In this document: positions 290-37,453 of the stretch, piece by piece
Position numbering within the stretch: the first letter of the stretch is position 1
How the letters are laid out: the number at the start of each line of letters is the position of its first letter
NCBI GenBank assembly: GCA_030683155.1
Contig: JAUXMV010000041.1
Span: 1 to 37,823 of the forward strand
Length of the DNA stretch: 37,823 bases
Source of the DNA: Bacteroidales bacterium
Lineage (GTDB): Bacteria > Bacteroidota > Bacteroidia > Bacteroidales > F082
Reading direction: 5' to 3'
Made by a program: the position numbers and the translations under genes
The notes under the pieces: generated by a model
Seen by the model: only the letters and a program-made list of their open reading frames with translations
What the model was told of the DNA's origin: nothing
Database searches by the model: none

Positions 290-1678
290 TTACTTCAAAA
301 CCAAATATCCCCATGCAGGAAGTGTAAAGGCGCTACCAGCAACGATTTCGATTGTTTCACCTGAAATGAGGTCAGTATATTTACCTTCAAGATTTTTGTC
401 AGAAATAGTGACTTCTTCATTCTCTCCGGTAACATTGATCAAAACCATGACACGATTGTCATTTTTTTCACGCACAAAAGAAAGAACTTCAGCAGCTTTA
501 TCTGTTGCGATTTCTGTAAAAGATCCACCATTGTCAGCGTTCCAGAGGCTTTCGCTGTCTTTTTTAATTGAATTAAGACATGTATAAAAAGCAGTGAAGT
601 CTGACTCTTTTGTCCAATCGATTTCATCCTTCTCAAAGAAAAGCAGTCTGTGATTCAGCGCAACTTCTTGTCCGTTGTAAATCATTGGAAATCCGGGGAT
701 GGTGTAACTCATTACAGCAAAAGCTTTTGCCCCCTCGCCCATTCTCTCGAATTCCGTTCCATTCCATGAATTTTCGTCATGGTTCGAAGTAAACATCATG
801 CGGTAAGACGAAGGCGCAAAAATGCTGTCTTCCTTTGCAAAATATTTCCAAACGTCCTTAGCCGTTTTCTCACCTTTGGCAATATGATTCATGATATGAT
901 GAAATTCCCATCCATAGTTGGCATCAAATGCTTTCTGCATAAGGTCGCGCTGTCCTTCATCTTCAGCCAACATAAATACCGGTTTGATGGCATCAAGCTC
1001 AACACGGGCTTTTTCCCAAAATGCAGTTGGCACCATTCCTGCCACATCACAACGATAGCCATCAATATTGGCCTCTGCTACCCAAAACTTGAGTGCATCA
1101 ATCATGGCATTCCAAAGTGCGGGATTGTTTTCATAGTTTAAATCGGCAACATCTGTCCAGTCATAAGGAGAAATAATCTCGCCATTTTCGTCTCTGTTAT
1201 ACCAATCAGGATGGTCTGTAGCCCATTGATGATCAAAGGACGTGTGATTTGCCACCCAATCCAGAATTACCTTAAAGCCCATTTCATGTGCTTTTTCAAC
1301 AAGATTTTTAAAATCTTCGAAGTTTCCAAATTCAGGGTTGACTGCTTTATAATCTTTAATTGAATAATAGCTGCCAAGGCCGCCCTTTCGGTTAAGTTCA
1401 CCGATAGGATGAATCGGCATAAACCAAAGAATATCCACGCCAAGTTCTTTTAAACGTGGCAAATGAGTTGCAAATGCATCAAAAGTTCCTTCTTTTGTGA
1501 ATTGCCTTGTATTGACTTCATAAATTACCGCATCTTTAGCCCAGGTCGGCGTCACCACTACAGAGAATGGTTTTACAAAAGATTTCTCTTCAGTTTTTGT
1601 GGCACATGATAGAAATCCCATCGAGATAACAACGAGGGCAAGAGCCATTACGATTAAATGAATCATTGTTTTTTTCAT
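290..1678 (-). CDS. Alpha-amylase family (GH13) lipoprotein
   Basis: A secreted GH13 enzyme that should hydrolyse alpha-1,4-glucans or maltodextrins by the retaining mechanism. The start MKKTMIHL leads a hydrophobic segment ending in a lipobox with Cys25, so the mature protein is probably a lipid-anchored envelope protein. The four GH13 signature regions are visible: DWVANH (140-145), nucleophile Asp211 in GYRCD, acid/base Glu239 in LAED, and His300-Asp301 in SNHDE. A short beta-sandwich C domain follows, ending WGYLVLK. At 462 residues it is compact for the family. It is the third gene of the operon, 35 nt after the GH31 stop. Exact substrate (starch, maltodextrin, branched dextrin) cannot be read from sequence. 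Confidence 0.93.
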   Translation of the reverse strand: MKKTMIHLIVMALALVVISMGFLSCATKTEEKSFVKPFSVVVTPTWAKDAVIYEVNTRQFTKEGTFDAFATHLPRLKELGVDILWFMPIHPIGELNRKGGLGSYYSIKDYKAVNPEFGNFEDFKNLVEKAHEMGFKVILDWVANHTSFDHQWATDHPDWYNRDENGEIISPYDWTDVADLNYENNPALWNAMIDALKFWVAEANIDGYRCDVAGMVPTAFWEKARVELDAIKPVFMLAEDEGQRDLMQKAFDANYGWEFHHIMNHIAKGEKTAKDVWKYFAKEDSIFAPSSYRMMFTSNHDENSWNGTEFERMGEGAKAFAVMSYTIPGFPMIYNGQEVALNHRLLFFEKDEIDWTKESDFTAFYTCLNSIKKDSESLWNADNGGSFTEIATDKAAEVLSFVREKNDNRVMVLINVTGENEEVTISDKNLEGKYTDLISGETIEIVAGSAFTLPAWGYLVLK

Positions 1679-1713
1679 ATTAAAATTGTTTCAATTATTG
1701 AAATAAATAGGTT

Positions 1714-4572
1714 TTATTTTGCTGTAATTATTGTTTCGTGTCCAGGCCAAACAACTCTTAGGCGCCATTGACCATTGTCGTCTTGCCAGAAGCCCTGTTT
1801 AACACTTTGCTGATCTTCTTTTTTCAATTCACTAAGCTTTTTACCATCATATTGAACCTCCCTGAGTTTTTTCTCAAGACCATAAATTACAACTTCAAGA
1901 AGACGAGATTCAGGCATTCCGGACCAGCCATTGCCTGTGCGGTTTAAGGCAATACTTATTTCACCTTTATCAAGTTTCCCATCAAAATGTAGAAGTTCAT
2001 AGTCTCCAGACTCAAAAGTTCCAAAGCTGCTTCCATTATCTTCAAACATTTGCCCTGAGAAACTTCCGTCAGCACCGGGGAGATACGTATGTAAAAACAA
2101 GTTTCTTGAACTATAATAATCTGTTGTATTCACCGAAGGTACTCTTGGGATAAAACTTCCGGCTTTTACAAACACAGGTATACTTTCCAAAGCTGTTTGA
2201 ACCAGAATACTCTTACCGCCATTGTGTTTCTGGCCTGACCAGAAATGATACCACAGACCTTTTGGCAATTCAACCGATATCTTTTGAACATTGCTTTCAG
2301 TCACCGGAACAATCAAAAGCTGACTTCCGAAATAGTAACTATCGAATGAGTCAGTGAATCTTTCATCATCAGAATGATAAAAGAAAAGTGGCTTTGTTAT
2401 TGGCAAGCCCGTCTGCGAATTTTCCCATGCAGCGGTATAGATGTATGGAAGCAATTCATAACGCAATTTCATAAAATGCCGGACAATCCGTTTGGTCGTA
2501 TCATTAAAAAAGATTGGTTCAGAAGGAATAACTGATCCATGTGGTCGCAAGATTGGCGTAAAAGCTGAAAACTGCAACCAACGTGTATACAATTCATCAT
2601 CCTTCACGCCAGTAGCAAATCCGCCGGCATCAGAATGCATGTAAGGAACACCGGACATACTCATATTGAGCATGGCAGGCAACTGCGCTTTCAATCCTTT
2701 CCAGCTGCGGCTCACATCGCCACTCCACGGAACAATACCATATCTCTGAGTTCCTGCAAAACCACTTCTTGCAAGAAAAAACAATCTTTTTTCAGGGAAG
2801 TCTTTTCTGAAATTTTCAAAAATAGTTTTCGACCAGTAGTGTCCGTAAATATTGTGTACTTCGTCGGCCTTACCTAAAACATGAAACATATCAGAAGGAT
2901 GGCTTTCAGGTTCACCGAGGTCACCCCAAAGGCCTTCAATTCCGATATCAAACTGTTTTCTGTATTCTTTCCATAGCCATTGCTGCGCTTCGGGTTTAAA
3001 AATATCGATCAGAGAGCCATTGCCGAAATAGAATTGTTTATCGACATAAGTTTTGCCAAGGCTATCGGTTGCAAGAATCTGAAGATCACTGGCAATTTTC
3101 CAATTTTCAAGACTGTCAATGATATATGGCTCAGAGATCGTGATTGTCTTTATTCCTTTGCTTCGGAAATCAGCGATCATCTTTTCAGGATCGGGCCAGC
3201 TTGGCTTCCACCAGTCGAGACGACCAAGATGACCCAGGATGCTATCTCCAAACCAGTAAAAGTCAAGAATAACAGCATCAACAGGAAAATCTTCGGCGAT
3301 CATTTGCTCAACAATTTCGGTAGTTTCCTGCTGTGTGCGATAAGCCATCCGGGATTGCAGGTTGCCAAAAGCCCAGCGAGGTAACATGGGTTGCACTCCG
3401 GTAAGCATGCCATATTGCTGCATTAAAAGCGGATAACTTTTTGCCGTTGCAATTATATAACGCATAGGTCCGCCAGCAGCGCCAAATTCAAGAATTCCAT
3501 CACCTTTGCTGTCGGCATCAAACCATGCTTTATGAGGATTATCAACCAATAAGAGATATTTTTTTGACGACACGAGCAATGGTATCATATAATTCAAATT
3601 ATCTGCACCAAACTCATAATTGTAATCGGGTCTGTTGTACAATCCCAGTTTGCGTCCACGAAGATTAATTCCACTTGTACGGCCTCCACTGCCATAAAGT
3701 TTCTCATCCTGATCGAGCGTAAACCGGATACCGTTTCCGTCGGTTCGCGAAAAGAAACCCCGCTCCTGACTCAAAATATTCTTTCCATTACTGAGATAAC
3801 TGACTTTGAAAGGTTTTTTCTGCACCAAAATCTGTAGCCCAGGCAAATCATACATTATTTTATCTCCAGCCTCAGCGAGGAAAGTCCTCACTTCTGCAGG
3901 CTTCAATATCACTGAATGCGAAGGCGGAAAACTTTCAAACCCATCAGGATGCCAGCTGGTTTCAACGATGCTGTCACTAAATGGTCTGACAACGATGGTT
4001 CCCTTATCTGTTTCAATGAAAAGATTTCCATTGACCAGCCTATGACTATTGTAAAGTATTTCATTAAAGAGGTAATCTGCTGGCTTTGATTGCAATGGCT
4101 TGTATCCATCAATTGGGACATAAATATCGGTGTTGGCAGCTGTTTTTCCAACCCTGCCTCCATTTACATCGCGAAAAACAAACGCAATCATATTCACCTT
4201 TATATCATCCGTAATACCAAATAAATCCTTTGGTACAAAGCTGGCTTCATAAAGATTATCTTCTTTTTTAATCATCTCAACGCGTGCATCATCTGCACCC
4301 CAATTGCCAACTACAAATTTCCAGTCGCGCTCATCACGACTTTGATTGGTTATCAATCCGGCATGGAAATAAACTTTTCCATAAACATCTTTCAATTCCT
4401 GATTTCCCTTTGTTGCATCAAAAAGAATGGTAATTTCATCAGTCATTTTAGGCGAAACAGGACTTACAGTCACCTCCTGAGCCATCAAAGGCATCATGAG
4501 GATGAATGAAAGTGCGAATGCAACATGCTTTTTTAAAGCAAGAAATGAATGGAAAGTTTTGAATAAAATCAT
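1714..4572 (-). CDS. Exported GH31 alpha-glucosidase
   Basis: A 952-residue GH31 glycoside hydrolase, expected to release glucose from the non-reducing ends of alpha-glucans. The N-terminus has a signal peptide ending near residue 31. Residues about 33-155 form an extra beta-sandwich, carbohydrate-module-like domain seen in front of some Bacteroidota GH31 enzymes. The GH31 N-terminal domain follows (about 165-370), then the TIM barrel (about 385-720) with nucleophile Asp551 in WGDLGEPE and acid/base Asp619 in PWSGD, then the C-terminal beta domains. It lies 18 nt downstream of the SusA-like GH13 and 35 nt upstream of the GH13 lipoprotein, so the three are almost certainly co-transcribed. Isomaltose versus maltose preference is not predictable here. 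Confidence 0.94.
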   Translation of the reverse strand: MILFKTFHSFLALKKHVAFALSFILMMPLMAQEVTVSPVSPKMTDEITILFDATKGNQELKDVYGKVYFHAGLITNQSRDERDWKFVVGNWGADDARVEMIKKEDNLYEASFVPKDLFGITDDIKVNMIAFVFRDVNGGRVGKTAANTDIYVPIDGYKPLQSKPADYLFNEILYNSHRLVNGNLFIETDKGTIVVRPFSDSIVETSWHPDGFESFPPSHSVILKPAEVRTFLAEAGDKIMYDLPGLQILVQKKPFKVSYLSNGKNILSQERGFFSRTDGNGIRFTLDQDEKLYGSGGRTSGINLRGRKLGLYNRPDYNYEFGADNLNYMIPLLVSSKKYLLLVDNPHKAWFDADSKGDGILEFGAAGGPMRYIIATAKSYPLLMQQYGMLTGVQPMLPRWAFGNLQSRMAYRTQQETTEIVEQMIAEDFPVDAVILDFYWFGDSILGHLGRLDWWKPSWPDPEKMIADFRSKGIKTITISEPYIIDSLENWKIASDLQILATDSLGKTYVDKQFYFGNGSLIDIFKPEAQQWLWKEYRKQFDIGIEGLWGDLGEPESHPSDMFHVLGKADEVHNIYGHYWSKTIFENFRKDFPEKRLFFLARSGFAGTQRYGIVPWSGDVSRSWKGLKAQLPAMLNMSMSGVPYMHSDAGGFATGVKDDELYTRWLQFSAFTPILRPHGSVIPSEPIFFNDTTKRIVRHFMKLRYELLPYIYTAAWENSQTGLPITKPLFFYHSDDERFTDSFDSYYFGSQLLIVPVTESNVQKISVELPKGLWYHFWSGQKHNGGKSILVQTALESIPVFVKAGSFIPRVPSVNTTDYYSSRNLFLHTYLPGADGSFSGQMFEDNGSSFGTFESGDYELLHFDGKLDKGEISIALNRTGNGWSGMPESRLLEVVIYGLEKKLREVQYDGKKLSELKKEDQQSVKQGFWQDDNGQWRLRVVWPGHETIITAK

Positions 4573-4590
4573 TGTTCTGTCGTTAGTCTT

Positions 4591-6456
4591 TTACTTTTTC
4601 AATTCGATAATTCTTGCAGACATTGCAGGAACAGAAATCATCTTCAGTTGGTCGAAATATGTGCGGTGCAGTAAATCTGTACCTGTTGTGAAACCTTCAA
4701 GATTTTCATTAAAACGTTCTGTTTTAATGGTTTTGCTTTCTTCATTGTTGTTGAGAATCACCATAACAGTTTCATCTTCATTGTAACGGAAATACACATA
4801 AATACCATCCTCCGGAACATAATGTTTCAGCATTCCATCATGAATTACCTTTTTGTTTTTCCGCCAATGCAAGAGCATTCGCAGAAAATCACCTGCTTCA
4901 TTTTGATCAGTAGTAAGGCCTTGTTTTTTAAAAGCATTGATTTCATCACCTGACCAACCTCCCGGAAAATCCTCTCTGATAAATCCGTGTCCGTCGTGTT
5001 CCCATCCGGTCATCAACAATTCAGTACCATAATAAATTTGCGGAAAACCACGCACTGTCATCAAAAAGGCCATAGCCATTTTAAATTTTCTCATATCTTC
5101 CTTCAAAACGGTGTAGATTCTATCAGCATCATGGTTATCGGCAAATACAACAATGTTTTGAGGATTGCTGTAAAGGTAATCCAGGCTTAAGGATTCATAA
5201 AGTTTTGAAACTCCGGAGCTCCAGCCATGACTTTCATTAAAAGCACTTCCAATGGCATATTTAAGCGGAAAGTCAAAAAGGTAGTTTAGATGAGAATTAT
5301 ATCCATCGGCATTGCTTGCATCCTCCATCCAATAAGCTACCTGAGGTGCTGTATTAAGCCAAACTTCGCCAACTACTGAAAAATTCGGATATTCAAAACG
5401 CAGTCTCTGCATCCATTCAGTCATAACTTCTTTACCAGAATAAGGATAAGTATCCATTCTTATTCCATCGAGTCCGGCATACTCAACCCACCATATACTA
5501 TTCTGAATGAGATAGTTGGCTACGTAAGGATTCTCCTGATTCAGATCTGCCATTGTTGTGTCAAACCATCCTTTTAACATCAATTTCTTGTCATGTTCCG
5601 ATGCATATGGATCTACAAGTGTTCCTCCACGATAATTTGAGCGTGTATATTCAGGCCATTGATTGATCCAGTCTTTCATAGGCAAATCCTTCAGCCACCA
5701 ATGGCTTGTGCCAAAATGATTGAAAACCATATCTTTTATGATGCGAAGACCTTTTTTTCCAGCTTCTTCGACCAACAAACGAAAATCTTCATTTGTTCCA
5801 AAACGCGCATCAACTTTATAAAAATCCGTTATGGCATAACCATGATATGTTACAGCTGGCATATTATTTTCGAGCACAGGATTTAACCAAAGTGCTGTAA
5901 CCCCCAGATCATTGAAATAATCAAGATTATCCCTAATTCCTTTGATATCGCCGCCATGCCTGCCATTCGGATTGCTTCGGTTCAATTTCTCCAACATTCC
6001 ATCAACATTGTCGTTGGATGGGTCGCCATTGGCAAAACGGTCAGGCATAAGCAGATAAATGACATCACTATTGTTAAAACCTTGTCGTTCGGCTGATCCT
6101 TTGGCTCTTTCAATTAGTTCGTAGCTGAAAGTCAATGGCTTTTTCTTGCCGGTTTCAAAAACAATCTGGAAAGTTCCGGGCTGCACATCAGGTGATAAAA
6201 CAAGATTAAGAAAAAGATAATTGGGGTTTTCAACCAAAACAGTTTCTTTCAGCTGAACGCCGGGATAAGTAATGCTAACGCGTGTTTTACCAATGTCCTT
6301 TCCATTTACCATTAACTGTAGTTCAGTGCTTTTCATTCCAGCCCACCAAAACGGAGGTTCAATGCGGTTCAACTCCTGACTGTGCAATGAACCCATTGGA
6401 ATAAAATAGAAGAATGCTAAAGCGGCTAGCATAATGAGATTGATTTTGTGTTTCAT
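4591..6456 (-). CDS. SusA-like neopullulanase/cyclomaltodextrinase (GH13)
   Basis: A 621-residue periplasmic GH13 enzyme of the neopullulanase/cyclomaltodextrinase type, like SusA of Bacteroides. A signal peptide ends near residue 26 (HSQ). Residues about 28-115 match the N-terminal beta domain typical of cyclomaltodextrinases. The catalytic barrel shows region I DMVFNH (242-247), nucleophile Asp335 in GIRMD, acid/base Glu364 in VVGEVW and the transition-state stabilising Asp443 in NHDADR. A C-terminal all-beta domain ends the protein. It is the first gene of the glycan operon; a promoter and LacI-type operator candidate lie about 190 nt upstream. No SusC/SusD pair or SusR-like regulator is present in the window. 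Confidence 0.94.
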   Translation of the reverse strand: MKHKINLIMLAALAFFYFIPMGSLHSQELNRIEPPFWWAGMKSTELQLMVNGKDIGKTRVSITYPGVQLKETVLVENPNYLFLNLVLSPDVQPGTFQIVFETGKKKPLTFSYELIERAKGSAERQGFNNSDVIYLLMPDRFANGDPSNDNVDGMLEKLNRSNPNGRHGGDIKGIRDNLDYFNDLGVTALWLNPVLENNMPAVTYHGYAITDFYKVDARFGTNEDFRLLVEEAGKKGLRIIKDMVFNHFGTSHWWLKDLPMKDWINQWPEYTRSNYRGGTLVDPYASEHDKKLMLKGWFDTTMADLNQENPYVANYLIQNSIWWVEYAGLDGIRMDTYPYSGKEVMTEWMQRLRFEYPNFSVVGEVWLNTAPQVAYWMEDASNADGYNSHLNYLFDFPLKYAIGSAFNESHGWSSGVSKLYESLSLDYLYSNPQNIVVFADNHDADRIYTVLKEDMRKFKMAMAFLMTVRGFPQIYYGTELLMTGWEHDGHGFIREDFPGGWSGDEINAFKKQGLTTDQNEAGDFLRMLLHWRKNKKVIHDGMLKHYVPEDGIYVYFRYNEDETVMVILNNNEESKTIKTERFNENLEGFTTGTDLLHRTYFDQLKMISVPAMSARIIELKK

Positions 6457-28855: not shown

Positions 28856-31183
28856 TTATGAGGCTAATGCATTGGCAAACATCCTTTTAAAAATTGCTAT
28901 GGTTTCTTTCACAGCCTGTTCAGGGGATAATGCAGTATCCGAAATTCCGGAAACAACGCTTGAGATATCATGATCAACGGTTCCATCCTTTTTCCATTTG
29001 TTTATGGAAGCAGCCGTAAGGTAGGCAGAAAAATTATGATGCCCTGAACCTGGTCGTTCACCGATGATATGAATGATTCCTTTGACTTCAGTTTCATCTT
29101 TTTCATCACCATACAGCAACTCGCCGCAGGCATAACCTGCACGCACCCTGCCATGGGTAATGACTATATTCTCTTTGCCAACACTAAAATTATTCTCTTT
29201 TAATGCATTGGTTAATCCAGTAAGAAAGGGCTCCAAATGGTCTTCATCCATCAAAGCCCGTGGATTTAGTCCGTCTGATATTATTATTTGCACATCGGGT
29301 ATTTTGCTGCCCCATCGATCATGCATTTTTTCCAGAAGCCACTTGGAATCTTCACTTAATTTTTCACCTGATTCAGGATGATAAACATAATCTTTCCTAT
29401 CCTTTGAAAGTGTAATCAAAGGCAAAGCTGCCGGTATACCTGCAACGAAAGAAGGCAACATCTCTGACCATATGCTTACTTTGGCATCTTCGTAAAGTCT
29501 GTGCACCTCCTTGTCAAGTTCAGGATTTAATTCCCAAAAATGTTCTCCAAAGCCTTCTGCAATATTTACGCCTCTTTGTCGAATTCTCGACAAACATTCT
29601 TCCCCTTCAGCGTAGATTTCTGTTTGATTTCGTTTGTCTCCTTTGGCTTTACAATATTGAAAATAGACCCAGATAGGGTCTCCAAAATGTGTTGTCGGCT
29701 TGTCATCTTCATCTATTATATCAAGCTTTTTGAAAAAGTCCCACATCACATCGTTCACTTTATAACCAAACTTTTCACGTATTTTCACATGGTCATTGAA
29801 AGCAGTTGTTAAATAGCTGAGCATAGGATCATTTTTGGTTGGCAGCGCCATCAGATAGGCAGGATTTGCTGGCATCACCTGCTCAATACACCAGTCAAGA
29901 TCATCCAATGTAACATCCATGTGGAGTGTTGAGCAAATATCAAGACCAATGGTTAATCCATGCAATTTGCCCATTACAGTATCTTCAAGACAACATCTTA
30001 CAAGCTGTTCTTTGGTTCTGAAAACTTCAGGCCCAATAAAACCGGCAACGTCATTCACAAAAACCCACGGCGCTTCACTCAACGGATTTGCAGCAGCCAT
30101 TTCTGCTTTAAGGGCGCGTATAAAACCATATTTTCTGGATTCATGCACCACCATATCAAAACATTCTCCATGTCCGTTGGTAAAATCAGCGCCTTGGCCG
30201 GTTTCGCAATACAAGCCAAACTGACCGTTTCGCTTCTCTGCATGATCAAACATTTTTTCGATAGAAACATCAAATGTTTGGTTTGCATTCACTGTCCCTG
30301 CAATACTCTGAAACCAAATGCCTGTTGTGCCGGGTTGCATTTCTTCTGCTTTGGCCTGAACATCAATATGAGAAAGGACGCAGTTTGGGATGGTCTTTTC
30401 CAGACCAAAAGTCTTAATAATTTCGAACAATGCAGCTTCAATACGTGCAACAGATTCCGGTTCGCTTGAAACTGGATTTGTACCCAAAACAAGGTCACCA
30501 ACGCCATAGGACCAGCCATTAAAAACCTGCCATGCAATATCTTCCGTATTGTCCGTGGGTGAGTTTGGCTGAATCCGTGCACTCATATACCCTCTGGCTC
30601 CAATATTGCTTTTGGGCAATGGATTAAAAACTTTTTGCCCCACAGCAATCAAATCATCATTGCTCATTAGCTTAACGACACAAGCAATCACATCGCTGGT
30701 CAAAGAAGGCATTACAGACTTGATTGCGTCTTCTTTTTCAGAAAGTAAAAATTGTTTAAGTTCACCTATTGTCCAGTCTTGAATTTCGTTGTCTGAAGCG
30801 GTAGTTTGTTGAATCAGATCAAGAATGCCATCTTTAAACAGCACATTTTTATTCAAATCCCTTATTTTGGTATTTGACAGCAGCAGCCGTGCATTGGCTC
30901 TTGAAGATTCACTTTCGGCAGCAACGCCAATCGTCAGATCGCCTTCCTTAAAATCATTGGCCGCACCGACAATTTGTCTGTAAAGCGTTAAATCCATTTC
31001 AGCTTTGACACGATGGATATATTCAAAAATATCCTCACCATCAAATGGCTCATAAATAACGCTTAAGGGAGAAGTATTCTCATCAATTGATGGAATCCAA
31101 AAATTGCACCCATTGAGTAAAATCAGTGAAGCGCTCAACAGACCAGTTTGCGTGACAAAACTTCTTCGTGTTATTTGATTCAT
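28856..31183 (-). CDS. Ethanolamine ammonia-lyase, EutB-EutC fusion with Tat lipoprotein signal
   Basis: Adenosylcobalamin-dependent lyase expected to split ethanolamine into acetaldehyde and ammonia. Residues about 40-505 align with EutB; residues matching E. coli Arg160, Gln162, Asn193, Ser247, Glu287 and Asp362 are present as Arg203, Gln205, Asn236, Ser293, Glu327 and Asp415. Residues about 600-775 match the EutC core (IIISDGLNPRAL, HGRVRAGYACGELL, IGERPGSG). Residues about 506-598 are a linker in which I do not see the EutC N-terminal GRAG-type segment. The N-terminus reads TRRSFV followed by a hydrophobic stretch and LLNGC, i.e. a twin-arginine motif with lipobox Cys26. I use the ATG at 31183; an in-frame ATG at 31210 adds nine residues before the signal. 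No eut operon is nearby. It has a near-perfect promoter of its own. Confidence 0.92.
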   Translation of the reverse strand: MNQITRRSFVTQTGLLSASLILLNGCNFWIPSIDENTSPLSVIYEPFDGEDIFEYIHRVKAEMDLTLYRQIVGAANDFKEGDLTIGVAAESESSRANARLLLSNTKIRDLNKNVLFKDGILDLIQQTTASDNEIQDWTIGELKQFLLSEKEDAIKSVMPSLTSDVIACVVKLMSNDDLIAVGQKVFNPLPKSNIGARGYMSARIQPNSPTDNTEDIAWQVFNGWSYGVGDLVLGTNPVSSEPESVARIEAALFEIIKTFGLEKTIPNCVLSHIDVQAKAEEMQPGTTGIWFQSIAGTVNANQTFDVSIEKMFDHAEKRNGQFGLYCETGQGADFTNGHGECFDMVVHESRKYGFIRALKAEMAAANPLSEAPWVFVNDVAGFIGPEVFRTKEQLVRCCLEDTVMGKLHGLTIGLDICSTLHMDVTLDDLDWCIEQVMPANPAYLMALPTKNDPMLSYLTTAFNDHVKIREKFGYKVNDVMWDFFKKLDIIDEDDKPTTHFGDPIWVYFQYCKAKGDKRNQTEIYAEGEECLSRIRQRGVNIAEGFGEHFWELNPELDKEVHRLYEDAKVSIWSEMLPSFVAGIPAALPLITLSKDRKDYVYHPESGEKLSEDSKWLLEKMHDRWGSKIPDVQIIISDGLNPRALMDEDHLEPFLTGLTNALKENNFSVGKENIVITHGRVRAGYACGELLYGDEKDETEVKGIIHIIGERPGSGHHNFSAYLTAASINKWKKDGTVDHDISSVVSGISDTALSPEQAVKETIAIFKRMFANALAS

Positions 31184-31228
31184 GATTTTTAAATTGCAGT
31201 TTAGAAGCATTTTAGCATTGAACTACTG

Positions 31229-31259
31229 CAAAGTTAATCACAAACAACTCCGATTCAAA
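31229..31259 (-). promoter_or_regulatory. Consensus promoter of the ammonia-lyase gene
   Basis: The minus strand has TTTG (31259-31256), exactly 19 nt, then TAACTTTG (31236-31229): a perfect match to TTTG-N19-TAnnTTTG. The predicted start of transcription is near 31222, about 39 nt before the ATG. This is the best promoter in the window. Confidence 0.75.
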
Positions 31260-31316: not shown

Positions 31317-33605
31317 CTAAAGCAGATTTCCTATCTTCAAAGACACGAAAAAAGTGCGCGGGCGCATTGGTCCATACATATAACCTGCATCTCTGAATGT
31401 GCCAAAATCAAAATCCTGCTGGTAGCTGTTGAAAAGATTCTGAACACCCGCTTCTGCCTTTAGCATCATACCATCAGCAATTTTGAAAGTATGAGACAAT
31501 TTCACATTCAATTCAAAAAAATCCGGAGTGGTTTTTATCTCATCATTTGGAATATAACCAGCAAAATGCGGAACTTTCATTGACCCAGTATAGAGTCCAC
31601 TGATGGTAGTGCTCAATTTAGGATTGAATTCCTTTATAAGGTTGAAATAGCCATAAACATTTGGTGACTTAGGCAAGGCTGTCAGCAGCTCACTTTCCGG
31701 GTCATCACTCCATGATTCAGGCTCTTTATAACGACTTCTTTGCAATGTAAAACCAGTTTGGAGCTGTATCTTCTGACTTATAACAGTTCTGTTTTCAACA
31801 TTGATTCCAAACACTTTTGCACCACTTCCATTGCGTCTTTCAACGATCATATTGCCTTGCTCATCGGTGTCGAGCGTTTCCAAAACAAAAACATCATCCA
31901 GTTGGGTGTAAAAACCTTCAACCATGAGGTTCGATTCCTTACCAAAGAGATCAAAGTAAGCGTCAATCGAGCTGCTAATGCTTTTTGAGTATTCCGGGCG
32001 AAGATTTGGATCAAGCTGAATGAGCATCACGCCGCCATTGACAGCAATGATATGAAGGTCTTCATCAAAGGCCTGTGGCGCTCTGAAGCCTGTAGAAATA
32101 CTTGAACGCCATTGTATTGCGGGTGTAATATTATTTAAAAAGGTAACCCTTGGGCTTACTATCACTTTTTCTATGAGGTTGTGTTTATCCATTCGTAAAC
32201 CAAGCATCAGACTTCCCTTTGGCAACTTCCATTGGCTTTGGCCATAAGCACCTGCAATCATAATATCCTGTTTCAAGTCACGATCATAACCGGGCATTAC
32301 ATCATGCATATTGTTTATCTGCAATTCAGTGCCTGCTACAAAATCAGCCTTTCCGAACAAAGCTTTTGCTTCTTTTCGTGTCCATTGCATTCCACCGACA
32401 AGCGTAAAATCTTTTGTAGCTCCGTATGCATTTAAATCTTGCTGAGCACCGTAATAACTTTGCCTGTCGATATGCTGTGCAGAAGTATAGAATGACATTT
32501 TTGAGCGTAGATCTTTAGAGTAATGATCATAAACCAATTCTCCGCCGTTAATCTGATGATCTGTCTGTTCAGTTATATCCGTTTCATGTGGCTGAAGATC
32601 AAATTTATTGCCACCACGCCTGAATTCACCAACATAATGATAGGTCAACGTAAGTTTCCCCTGATTTGAAGTCTTATAAAATGATCTTAATCCAAGTGAG
32701 TTTCCTTTAATAAGACCAATTTCTGAGAAACCGTCTCCGTTGGCATCATAATGATCACGGTTGCGGTTCACACCAAAAAGGTAGATGCCGGCCGCACGAT
32801 CGTCACTTATCAATGAACCGTTGAAAGAAGTATTTCTGTCGAATGATTTTCCGTTGATGGATGCTATGTTAAAACCACCTTCAAAGGAGTTTTTTACTGG
32901 TTCGCGTGTTATCACGTTGATAGTTCCCGCAATAGCATTTGATCCATAAAGAGCCGATCCTCCGCCTCTTACAACCTCAATACGTTCAATCATTGCGATT
33001 GGAATCTGTTCAATGCCATAAACACCACTCAAAGCGCTGAAAACTGGGCGGCTGTCGATAAGTATTTGTGAATAAGGACCTTCAAGGCCATTGATTCTTA
33101 CTTGTTGAAAACCGCAGTTTTGGCAATTGTTTTCAATCCTTAAGCCAGGTGAAAGCGATAGTCCATCGGCCATGCACATTGCGTTTCCGGCCTGGAGCAG
33201 ACCCGCATTGAGCACATTCACAATTACAGGAGCTTCCTGTCGGTTGGCCTCATAACGGTTTGCTGTCACAACCACCTCATTCAGTCCGATCCGGTCAGCT
33301 TCAAGATTGATTTCAAGCGCTTCAGAAGTTTTTCTCATGTTATAAGGAACTTCCATCGCTTTGAAACCCACACTTTGAATCCTGATGGTAAAATCTCCGG
33401 GTGGAAGTTTTTTTAGTTCAAAATGGCCTTGCTCATTGGTAACAGTGCCAATTGTGGTTCCTTTTATACTCACAGTTGCAAAAGAAACTGCTTCATTGTT
33501 ACTTACTATTTTTCCGCGAAGTACTGTTGGAGGTTCTGTAGCAGAAAGCGTAAAAATTACAGCTAAAAAGAAAAAAGTCAAAGCAAAAGACCTGTATGTT
33601 TTCAT
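31317..33605 (-). CDS. TonB-dependent outer-membrane receptor
   Basis: A 762-residue TonB-dependent receptor of the FepA/BtuB-like (non-SusC) type. After a signal peptide (about 1-22) comes a carboxypeptidase-regulatory-like domain (about 26-110), typical for Bacteroidota, with LNEVVVTANR as possible TonB-box region. The plug (about 115-235) includes ERIEVVRGGGSALYGSNAIAG. A CQNC motif sits in the plug just before the GFQQVRINGLEGPYSQIL segment. The barrel ends RPRTFFVSLKIGNLL. The ATG at 33605 is preferred over 33644 because it gives a normal signal peptide. Substrate unknown; corrinoid, siderophore or metal chelate are all possible. It lies upstream of the ammonia-lyase gene with 133 nt between them, but that gene has its own promoter. 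Confidence 0.93.
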   Translation of the reverse strand: MKTYRSFALTFFFLAVIFTLSATEPPTVLRGKIVSNNEAVSFATVSIKGTTIGTVTNEQGHFELKKLPPGDFTIRIQSVGFKAMEVPYNMRKTSEALEINLEADRIGLNEVVVTANRYEANRQEAPVIVNVLNAGLLQAGNAMCMADGLSLSPGLRIENNCQNCGFQQVRINGLEGPYSQILIDSRPVFSALSGVYGIEQIPIAMIERIEVVRGGGSALYGSNAIAGTINVITREPVKNSFEGGFNIASINGKSFDRNTSFNGSLISDDRAAGIYLFGVNRNRDHYDANGDGFSEIGLIKGNSLGLRSFYKTSNQGKLTLTYHYVGEFRRGGNKFDLQPHETDITEQTDHQINGGELVYDHYSKDLRSKMSFYTSAQHIDRQSYYGAQQDLNAYGATKDFTLVGGMQWTRKEAKALFGKADFVAGTELQINNMHDVMPGYDRDLKQDIMIAGAYGQSQWKLPKGSLMLGLRMDKHNLIEKVIVSPRVTFLNNITPAIQWRSSISTGFRAPQAFDEDLHIIAVNGGVMLIQLDPNLRPEYSKSISSSIDAYFDLFGKESNLMVEGFYTQLDDVFVLETLDTDEQGNMIVERRNGSGAKVFGINVENRTVISQKIQLQTGFTLQRSRYKEPESWSDDPESELLTALPKSPNVYGYFNLIKEFNPKLSTTISGLYTGSMKVPHFAGYIPNDEIKTTPDFFELNVKLSHTFKIADGMMLKAEAGVQNLFNSYQQDFDFGTFRDAGYMYGPMRPRTFFVSLKIGNLL

Positions 33606-33660
33606 CGGATAACGTTTTTGTTTCACAATGCAAAACAACTCCAATATACTTCGCTACGCC

Positions 33661-33742: not shown

Positions 33743-34891
33743 TCAATGATTTATAACTTTAACAATCTGGTTGTTTTTACCACTGCTTACATGGATCAAA
33801 TACAAGCCTTTATGAGAAAGAGTGACTTCCTTTTGGATTGTATTGCTGATAAAATCTCCGACAACCTGCCCTGTTGCATTGTAAATGGTGATGCGTTTCT
33901 CATGTACATCATCAAACTTCAGATTGACGATTCCATTGGAAGGATTTGGCCATGCAGTAATTACAGCATTCTTTGGAAGATTGATTTCGCCAACATTAAT
34001 GAGCCCATCCAATGTATATTTTCTGAAAAAACGCCAAATCTCCTTGCTGGCACTGAAATCCATATTCGTTACATTGAGATTGATCGCCGCACCAGGCCAC
34101 GAATGACCACCACCAATAATTTTGAAATGTTCCACAACTGTTCCATTCTGGCCTCCTTCATACAGATAATGTTCAGCTGTTGAACCATCATTTACATCTA
34201 TATCAGGCAATTGCGTAATGACAGGTGTTGAAGAACAACTGTTATTACTTACCCAGAAATCGAGCAAGCTTTGCACTGGCGCAAAAAACACATCTCCGGC
34301 ATAAGGCACTGTTCCGTCAGCTGTGCCATGAATCTGCATCACAGGCACGGCTCTTCCAGGGTTGCAAGCGGCAAGATTTGTACGAACCATTGTTCCGGTA
34401 ACAGAAGCTATTGCTGCAATACGATGGCTTAATGCACACGCAAGTTGAAAACTCATGAATCCACCATTGCTCATTCCGGTACTGTAAACCCTGTTGAGGT
34501 CTACATTGTAATTACCGGCCAGGGTATCAATCAAAGCAGAGAGAAAACCAACATCATCCACATTGGAAGTTCCAAAAGTGTTCCAGTGACGGATATTATT
34601 TACATCAAGTGTACCATTTGGATGAACCAACAAAAACCCTGCAGTATCAGCCACCCTGCTAATAAGTGTATAAAATTCCTGCTCAATATTGTTCGAGCCA
34701 TAGCCATGAAGATTCATTACCAAAGCTGCAGGGTTTGCCTGATTGTAGGATGCCGGAATGTAAAGTCTGTAGTTTCGCTGAATACCTCCATGCATCATTG
34801 AAGCAGAGACCGTTGTTTGTGCAATCAATCCTGAGGCAAATAAAGAAAAGACTGTTAACAAAAAAGATTGAAAGAATATAAATTTTTTCAT
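33743..34891 (-). CDS. PHB-depolymerase/LpqC-like esterase with T9SS sorting domain
   Basis: A 382-residue secreted alpha/beta hydrolase of the LpqC/carbohydrate-esterase-1-like group. After a signal peptide (cut near LIAQ, residue 25), the catalytic domain spans about 28-300: VMNLHGYGS (oxyanion region), nucleophile Ser in STGMSNGGF, Asp in IHGTADGTVPY and His in GGGHSWPG. Residues about 305-382 are a type IX secretion type A domain (ITAWPNPSNGIVNL ... KGLYLIHVSSG). Relatives act on polyhydroxybutyrate, feruloyl or acetyl esters; the true substrate is unknown. The T9SS tail predicts cell-surface or extracellular action. It is transcribed from its own promoter (34938-34969). Confidence 0.9.
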   Translation of the reverse strand: MKKFIFFQSFLLTVFSLFASGLIAQTTVSASMMHGGIQRNYRLYIPASYNQANPAALVMNLHGYGSNNIEQEFYTLISRVADTAGFLLVHPNGTLDVNNIRHWNTFGTSNVDDVGFLSALIDTLAGNYNVDLNRVYSTGMSNGGFMSFQLACALSHRIAAIASVTGTMVRTNLAACNPGRAVPVMQIHGTADGTVPYAGDVFFAPVQSLLDFWVSNNSCSSTPVITQLPDIDVNDGSTAEHYLYEGGQNGTVVEHFKIIGGGHSWPGAAINLNVTNMDFSASKEIWRFFRKYTLDGLINVGEINLPKNAVITAWPNPSNGIVNLKFDDVHEKRITIYNATGQVVGDFISNTIQKEVTLSHKGLYLIHVSSGKNNQIVKVINH

Positions 34892-35710: not shown

Positions 35711-37453
35711 ATGATCAAGCAACCCCGACTATCATTCTGGCAAATCTGGAACATGAGTTTTGGATTTTTAGGCATTCAATTCGGTTATGCGCTTCAAAAT
35801 GCCAATGTAAGCCGCATATTTCAAACACTTGGAGGAGATACGGATAAACTGGCTCTTTACTGGCTGGCAGCGCCTGTAACCGGCTTGCTGATTCAACCCA
35901 TCGTTGGTTATTTCAGTGACCGAACCTGGAACCGCTTTGGCCGCCGCAGACCCTATTTCCTTGTGGGTGCCATCATGGCAAGTCTTGGACTGCTGATCAT
36001 GCCAAATTCACCATTTTTGTGGGTTGCGGTCGGGATGCTCTGGATCATGGACGCCTCCATCAACATCTCGATGGAACCTTTCAGGGCTTATGTCGGTGAT
36101 ATGCTTCCAAGTGAGCAACGCACCAAAGGTTTTGTCATGCAAAGTTTCTTCATCGGCATCAGTTCAGTCGTTGCTTCAGCCCTGCCCTATATCATGGCAA
36201 ACTGGATCGGCATTGCAAATACTGCGCCTGAAGGCATGATTCCGCCATCTGTGAAAATATCCTTTTATCTGGGTGCTTTTGCATTTATCACAACAGTTTT
36301 ATGGACTGTATTTCGTTCACATGAATATCCTCCTGAAGAATACAACCAATACCATCCTGCTGAGACGGAAGCCGAAAAAGACACCTTTTGGCTGTTTCAG
36401 ATTTTTAAAGATTTTGGCACAATGCCAAAGACAATGATTCAGCTGGCTTTTGTGCAATTCTTTTCGTGGTTTGCCCTTTTTGCGATGTGGGTTTATTCTG
36501 TTCCCGCTGTTACAACGCACCTTTATGACATGAAAATGCATCGTGATCAAATTGTGCAACTGAGTGCAATGGCAAATGAAAGAAAAGCGGAGTTTCTTGG
36601 CAATACAGTTGAAATGGAGCGACTTACAATGGTCATGCGCGATTTGGATGTGTTAATGACGAAAACCGAAAAAGAACCTTTAGCCAATATAAATATCAAT
36701 CTGGCCAATTACTTCGTAAACGGACGTATTCTGACAAATGAAGAAATGGCTGCAGAACTTACAAGAGCTGCATCTGAAACTTCCTTACCCGCAATGAATG
36801 AAGTAGTGGAAAAAGATTTTGCCGAACTCAGAAAACAGATAGCCAATGGAACTGTGCCTACAGTAACTGCTGAAACCATCAGGTATTTCACGCAAAACAT
36901 GGATCAGTTCAATTTTGATAATGAGTTTAAAACAAGGCTTACTTTGCTCAATTCCCTTACCCATGCACAAGCTGAATACAACAACGGTGCGGACTGGGTT
37001 GGAGTAAGTTTTGGAGGATACAATCTTTTTGCTGCTGCTATCGCCTTCTTTCTGCCAGTGCTGGCACGTATGACAAGCCGTAAAACTACTCATATGGTTT
37101 CTTTGATTCTGGGAGGCATCGGGCTTTTGTCAATATATTTTCTTCCAAACTCAAATTGGCTCATCCTATCGATGGTTGGTGTGGGCATTGCATGGGCCAG
37201 CATTTTGAGTATGCCATATGCAATTCTTACAGGCAGCATACCCGGAGGAAAACTGGGAATTTACATGGGGATTTTTAACTTTTTCATTGTAATTCCACAA
37301 ATACTTGCAGCCACAATTCTTGGTTTCATGCTTAAAACTTTCTTTATGAACGAAAGCATTTTTGCATTGGTCATTGGCGGAGTTGCTTTTCTCATCAGTG
37401 CCGCACTCGTGACAATAGTGGATGATGTGGATGATGTGCATGCCAAAGCATGA
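35711..37453 (+). CDS. Sugar-type MFS transporter with a 149-residue insertion
   Basis: A 580-residue inner-membrane transporter of the GPH/SLC45-like branch of the major facilitator superfamily, similar to maltose-type carriers of Bacteroidota. Signature GYFSDRTWNRFGRRRPYFL is in the loop after the second helix; the start GFLGIQFGYALQNANVSRIF and the GADWVGVSFGGYN segment are typical. About 12 helices are visible. Residues about 274-422 are soluble, rich in charged residues and helical, between the seventh and eighth helices; usual homologues have only a short loop there. Proton symport of maltose or a related glucoside is a reasonable inference given the glycosidase operon in this window. 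It ends at a strong terminator (37491-37525). Confidence 0.92.
   Translation: MIKQPRLSFWQIWNMSFGFLGIQFGYALQNANVSRIFQTLGGDTDKLALYWLAAPVTGLLIQPIVGYFSDRTWNRFGRRRPYFLVGAIMASLGLLIMPNSPFLWVAVGMLWIMDASINISMEPFRAYVGDMLPSEQRTKGFVMQSFFIGISSVVASALPYIMANWIGIANTAPEGMIPPSVKISFYLGAFAFITTVLWTVFRSHEYPPEEYNQYHPAETEAEKDTFWLFQIFKDFGTMPKTMIQLAFVQFFSWFALFAMWVYSVPAVTTHLYDMKMHRDQIVQLSAMANERKAEFLGNTVEMERLTMVMRDLDVLMTKTEKEPLANININLANYFVNGRILTNEEMAAELTRAASETSLPAMNEVVEKDFAELRKQIANGTVPTVTAETIRYFTQNMDQFNFDNEFKTRLTLLNSLTHAQAEYNNGADWVGVSFGGYNLFAAAIAFFLPVLARMTSRKTTHMVSLILGGIGLLSIYFLPNSNWLILSMVGVGIAWASILSMPYAILTGSIPGGKLGIYMGIFNFFIVIPQILAATILGFMLKTFFMNESIFALVIGGVAFLISAALVTIVDDVDDVHAKA

Follow-up and report, generated by a model that had tools for sequence, protein, structure and literature searches.

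Can a coenzyme B12-dependent ammonia-lyase work outside the cytoplasm? The usual view places adenosylcobalamin enzymes in the cytoplasm, the compartment in which the cofactor is made and in which damaged adenosylcobalamin is swapped by an ATP-driven reactivase. The question is raised by a single gene in a Bacteroidales contig (JAUXMV010000041.1; the window, i.e. the whole stretch of DNA analysed, is 37,823 nucleotides long). Its product, here P0001, had been described in an earlier note as a fusion of the two subunits of ethanolamine ammonia-lyase, EutB and EutC, that is exported as a Tat lipoprotein.

The gene runs on the minus strand from an ATG at position 31183 to a stop ending at 28856, and the N-terminus of the product is MNQITRRSFVTQTGLLSASLILLNGC. 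An alternative in-frame ATG at 31210 would add nine residues; the starts of the relatives lie closer to 31183. A candidate promoter, selected with what we take to be the Bacteroidota consensus, sits at the expected place upstream, yet it is no rarer than chance (Table 1).

Table 1. Features of the fused gene and its product in the window.
Feature	Position	Strand	Basis
Fused EutB-EutC gene	28856..31183	-	775 aa + stop; Pfam, NCBIfam, nearest solved sequences, AlphaFold2, Foldseek
Putative Tat-type lipoprotein signal, residues 1-25	31109..31183	-	sequence; class kept in relatives; h-region hydrophobicity 1.69
Twin-arginine motif TRRSFV, residues 5-10	31154..31171	-	sequence and family comparison
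Lipobox LLNGC, residues 22-26, lipidation predicted at Cys26	31106..31120	-	sequence; Cys in 32/70 Tat-type relatives
EutB domain, residues 69-498	29690..30979	-	Pfam, conserved positions, Foldseek
Linker and diverged EutC N-terminal part, residues 499-585	29429..29689	-	helical in AlphaFold2 model
EutC domain, residues 586-771	28871..29428	-	Pfam, conserved positions, Foldseek
His705, His715, His738	in or near 28982-29071 (window)		alignment to E. coli EutC and family
Candidate Bacteroidota-type promoter, TTTG-N19-TAACTTTG	31229..31259	-	weak: 3 sites in window vs 3.08 expected

That one 775-residue chain contains both subunits is confirmed by profile searches and by the predicted fold. Both Pfam thresholds are passed: EutB (PF06751) with E=1.1e-139 and 466.5 bits vs a cut-off of 25, and EutC (PF05985) with E=1.2e-31 and 110.4 bits vs a gathering score of 25.8, the latter match beginning at profile position 62. 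P0001 is also above the NCBIfam cut-off for the EutB subfamily (NF011649, 602.6 vs 554 bits) and below that for the EutC equivalog (NF003971, 74.7 vs 230 bits), so that its C-terminal part is EutC-like and not an equivalog. The closest solved sequences are the EutB structures 2qez and 3abo. In Foldseek, the AlphaFold2 model (mean pLDDT 88.6) agrees with the E. coli enzyme at TM 0.87 for EutB (3abo_A) and 0.69 / 0.72 for EutC (3abo_B / 3abo_D), all by target length.

Two short patterns were used to scan a species-genome collection. Of the 127 relatives detected, 80 were analysed; with P0001 they make up a family set of 81, and 55 of the 80 plus P0001 were used in the model alignment. In the tree, the fused proteins group together as a single clade of 81 (support 100), set off by a long branch from 11 canonical EutB of Bacteroidota, and the root within the family is unsure. 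Members occur in Bacteroidota, Balneolota, Ignavibacteriota, Myxococcota, Planctomycetota, Acidobacteriota, Thermodesulfobacteriota, Pseudomonadota and one Chloroflexota MAG (bins may be mixed). When 395 genomes of its own phylum were drawn, P0001 matched in 13; the fused kind is present only in its own genome and in one other (G191), and the remaining 11 are the source of the canonical EutB in the tree. Of the 195 genomes in a Myxococcota set, 56 have a match at E<=1e-150. EutB was found in all 22 member genomes searched, with exactly one match in 18. Among viruses, 225 pattern matches include no relative, and PHROGs gave no match. Among plasmids, 148 records match, and at least 25 are rhizobial among the 60 matches listed (identity 50.6-54.5%). 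Three rhizobial N-termini were read (L133-L135). The member on pSymA of Sinorhizobium meliloti has a clear Tat signal (N-terminus MSKRLFSRQRDGLTRRDLLLMAGATATLASYSHAAK), and its record is annotated only as 'ethanolamine ammonia-lyase subunit EutB'; in this record, at least, the annotation would conceal an exported fused enzyme.

The mappable active-site residues of EutB are intact, as the earlier note had it. Nine positions, which we take to be the catalytic ones and whose numbers were counted in the 3abo_A alignment, are kept in P0001: R160, Q162, N193, S247, E287, F329, D362, M392 and L402. Eight of them are invariant in 81/81 members, and M392 is retained in 80/81. On the EutC side, S636, G638, L639, GRVR 678-681 and GERPG 708-712 are invariant as putative cobalamin-contact residues, and the overall fold is retained in the model. 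His705 and His738 are likewise invariant in 81/81 and His715 is found in 80/81, where E. coli EutC has other residues. Arg160 of EutB is named in a reference title in PMC10440813.

Regarding export, TRRSFV and LLNGC at Cys26 had been read as a Tat lipoprotein signal, and this reading agrees with the sequence and with the class conserved in relatives. P0001 combines an RRxF motif with a moderately hydrophobic stretch, and TatC is present in its genome; the h-region hydrophobicity (1.69) lies between those of signal-less members (mean 0.16) and Sec-type members (mean 2.72). Sorted by script and eye, the N-termini of the 81 proteins comprise 70 Tat-type, 3 Sec-type, 6 signal-less, 1 unclear and 1 truncated, where the Sec-type and signal-less rows were assigned by eye ahead of the script and L019 and L061 were set to RR by eye. 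In the Tat-type pattern, R-[R/K/N/E]-x-[F in most] leads into a stretch of moderate hydrophobicity and lies 54-73 residues ahead of a fixed anchor Asn. A strict rule (R[RK]xF plus low charge) selects 50/81 family members vs 3/654 other ORFs of the same loci, with identical counts for three window lengths; a looser rule selects 63/81 vs 34/654. Peak hydrophobicity separates the classes as well, at 0.95-2.08 for Tat-type, 2.63-2.77 for Sec-type and -0.31 to 0.53 for the rest. The N-terminal extension is absent in 11/11 canonical EutB. A further Myxococcota set of 30 loci, partly the same genes again, left 28 readable (L127 and L129 omitted), of which 23 have RR plus Cys and 5 have no clear signal.

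Not all of the predicted signal is equally conserved. The second motif position in the 70 Tat-type members is RR in 41, RK in 26, RN in 2 and RE in 1, and RK is a weaker Tat motif than RR; the Tat-type motif thus stood up to the survey of relatives, and the second arginine did so only in part. Similarly, LLNGC26 of P0001 agrees with the lipobox pattern, but a lipobox-like Cys is present in only 32/70 Tat-type members, a few of which (L064, L091) are unlike lipoboxes. Taken together, export looks conserved and the lipid anchor does not.

The six signal-less members (L080, L083, L088, L089, L092, L093) constitute one Archangium/Myxococcus clade, which has either lost the signal or never had it. 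Two genomes of this clade also have a Tat-type copy. In a larger tree of 104 rows, eight signal-less rows form one clade (support 99), and seven Sec-type rows together with two rhizobial Tat-type rows form another clade of nine (support 99); the tree implies a minimum of three transitions between the three signal states, as counted with L048, L076, L113 and L140 left out. Additional loci, read by eye, show the same mixture: among Thermodesulfobacteriota, L136-L141 are Sec-type and L142 and L143 Tat-type, and among L148-L176 (L164-L168 and L176 left out) 19 are Sec-type, 3 Tat-type (L157, L160, L175) and 1 unclear. The mixing of Tat and Sec signals within one clade implies that the route changed while export was retained. 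Replacement of the tag with export kept looks like the strongest sign in these sequences that export matters, the signal-less clade being the exception. Since a related clade carries Sec-type signals, leaving by Tat with the cofactor already loaded cannot be general in the family, and the myxobacterial clade has no signal; both points correct the original claim.

An alternative is that the N-terminus has no function, or serves only as a tether at the inner side of the membrane, and that the enzyme is cytoplasmic. The RK variants in 26/70 and the existence of a signal-less clade would fit this, but the motif and its spacing are kept across phyla, Sec-type signals replace Tat-type ones in related rows, a lipobox Cys occurs in 32/70, and the hydrophobicity classes fit the expectation for Tat and Sec. 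We regard a cytoplasmic location as very unlikely, and export as well supported by these comparisons.

Some neighbouring genes offer a link to function. The Sec-type, Geobacter-like L098 is accompanied by transport genes (ABC_tran, Peripla_BP_2, FecCD), by a gene for a solute-binding protein and by one for a membrane protein that matches no Pfam family. Sec-type EutBC at L098 (14123-16032) and L177 (4021-5932) is also adjoined by a MoxR-type ATPase and a DUF58/VWA protein, which possibly constitute a maturation or reactivation system. Upstream of the EutBC gene in L145 and L147 is an aldehyde:ferredoxin oxidoreductase. It could be argued from the corrinoid-type transporter genes, and from the lack of a reactivase, that these proteins are exported to bind or store corrinoid and have lost catalysis. 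This is highly improbable in our view, given that the catalytic positions are invariant in 81/81 and that the oxidoreductase adjoins two members.

Pelobacter carbinolicus carries two EutBC fusions without eutA, Pcar_0491 and Pcar_0467, which are 70% identical and clustered with a gene set like that of L098, and strains of this species grow on ethanolamine, according to PMC3543383; the passages on the fusions make no mention of EutBC export. An EutBC fusion without eutA is already in print (PMC3543383), which corrects the earlier note on this point. One of our genomes, G912, contains two Sec-type EutBC copies that are 70.8% identical to each other, about 29 kb apart, surrounded by L098-like neighbours and 60% identical to P0001, and is presumably P. 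carbinolicus. Catalysis by P0001 is thus supported by the invariant residues and by this Pelobacter link. The natural substrate of an exported enzyme could still be another vicinal amino alcohol, e.g. 2-amino-1-propanol, with which solved structures of ethanolamine ammonia-lyase exist (title of 5ysr); the long branch places the clade very far from canonical EutB, and no ethanolamine genes are near the Tat-type members. Since the mapped substrate-site positions are unchanged in 81/81 and P. carbinolicus strains grow on ethanolamine (PMC3543383), we consider a different substrate unlikely.

The Bacteroidales genome itself provides few partners. The fused gene is the only EutB-like gene found in it (one match to P0001), and a PF01923 adenosyltransferase is present. 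Its EutA-profile match is FtsA according to Pfam, not EutA; the microcompartment shell protein (PF00936) has 0 matches in the genome; and there is no aldehyde dehydrogenase among the 7 + 7 window proteins profile-scanned, the rest of the window being read by eye. The absence of EutA and of shell genes nearby had been noticed before and withstands the searches. Rfam gave no match in the window. Contig C71 carries the genome's sole cobalamin riboswitch, which adjoins a 429-aa protein with a type IX secretion tail (L132, 103-1392, minus strand); by eye this looks like a surface B12-binding propeller, Pfam finding the tail only.

Directly upstream of the fused gene is a TonB-dependent receptor (31317-33644, minus strand). 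It scores far below the B12-receptor cut-off (74.4 vs 599.7 bits), and a link between it and the fused gene is not supported as a family trait, the receptor not being common to the neighbourhoods of relatives. Among 96 of 136 flanking ORFs scanned in the relatives (loci L067, L070 and L088 left out), no Pfam family, of the 25 of 137 listed, occurs in more than 4. The fused gene mostly stands alone in the family. Elsewhere in the window are a secreted esterase that resembles polyhydroxyalkanoate depolymerases and carries a type IX secretion tail (33743-34891, minus strand), two amylase-family proteins flanking a third that by eye looks like a glycosidase (290-6456, minus strand), and an MFS sugar-type transporter (35711-37453).

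An EutA-profile match was obtained in 19/22 member genomes, in 18 of these only a short and weak one, which we take for FtsA, the identity being confirmed for the Bacteroidales genome only. Real EutA is present in one, a Nannocystis MAG (G415), and adjoins a second, signal-less EutBC fusion (L101, 4894-8582) whose EutC covers 3-234 of the profile, i.e. a full EutC. The Tat-type copy of this MAG (L095) is located away from both. A fused chain is therefore not in itself a sign of export, and in this single case EutA accompanies the unexported copy.

Weighing these results, we conclude from sequence and predicted structure that P0001 is probably an ethanolamine ammonia-lyase working outside the cytoplasm. 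In favor are the domains and fold, the nine kept EutB positions, the Tat-type class in 70/81 and 11/11 canonical proteins without extension, together with the mixed Tat/Sec clade of nine, TatC and the adenosyltransferase, growth of P. carbinolicus on ethanolamine, and the oxidoreductase at L145 and L147. Against it count RK in 26/70, the signal-less clade of 6 and the 5/28 Myxococcota loci without a clear signal, neighbours of Tat-type members that give no support, and the divergence of EutC below the NCBIfam cut-off. Nor, to our knowledge, is any mechanism known by which the enzyme could be reactivated or reloaded once it has left the cytoplasm, which likewise counts against this reading.

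The following scheme is inferred as regards the substrate, the loading of the cofactor, the anchor and how the enzyme does without reactivation. The chain would fold inside the cell and take up adenosylcobalamin there, the genome having a PF01923 adenosyltransferase; the loaded, folded protein would leave by Tat and be anchored by a lipid at Cys26. With the subunits fused, a single signal would suffice to take both across, the cofactor lying between them. Outside, P0001 may use ethanolamine in the periplasm, or else a closely related vicinal amino alcohol, e.g. from phosphatidylethanolamine, yielding acetaldehyde and ammonia that could enter the cell. In Sec-type relatives, the cofactor would need to be loaded in the periplasm. 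We tentatively extend this, with somewhat more doubt than confidence, to adenosylcobalamin radical chemistry outside the cytoplasm in which Tat-type members leave loaded and Sec-type members cross unfolded and take corrinoid in the periplasm, the Peripla_BP_2/FecCD transporter serving them and the MoxR ATPase and DUF58/VWA protein replacing EutA.

If true, nature would have provided, in an enzyme with both Tat and Sec versions, an experiment on the site of B12 cofactor insertion, and a clade spanning Bacteroidota, Myxococcota, Planctomycetota, Acidobacteriota, Thermodesulfobacteriota and rhizobial megaplasmids would break the cytoplasmic picture of B12 enzymes, with ethanolamine used without an ethanolamine permease or microcompartment. 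Sinorhizobium meliloti, Myxococcus or Pelobacter could serve to test by what means an exported enzyme acquires B12 and keeps it active. Searches of an open-access library brought up no publication in which ethanolamine ammonia-lyase is exported or linked to Tat. The fusion itself has been published, and P0001 apparently represents an overlooked, putatively exported variant of a known enzyme.

Compared with known systems, P0001 shares domains, fold and mapped active-site residues with canonical EutB/EutC (E. coli 3abo, Listeria 2qez), which, unlike P0001, are separate cytoplasmic subunits without an N-terminal extension. The canonical pair usually occurs with EutA and often with a microcompartment, according to PMC5821096. 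The fusions Pcar_0491 and Pcar_0467 are likewise without eutA, but, if G912 is indeed P. carbinolicus, they have a Sec-type start and cluster with transport, cobalamin and MoxR/VWA genes, whereas P0001 is Tat-type. The Nannocystis L101 fusion is also a single chain; in contrast to P0001 it has no visible signal, a fuller EutC (3-234) and a real EutA next to it. Reductive dehalogenases differ from P0001 in fold and chemistry, with iron-sulphur clusters and no adenosyl radical, and resemble it in being corrinoid enzymes that are exported folded by Tat.
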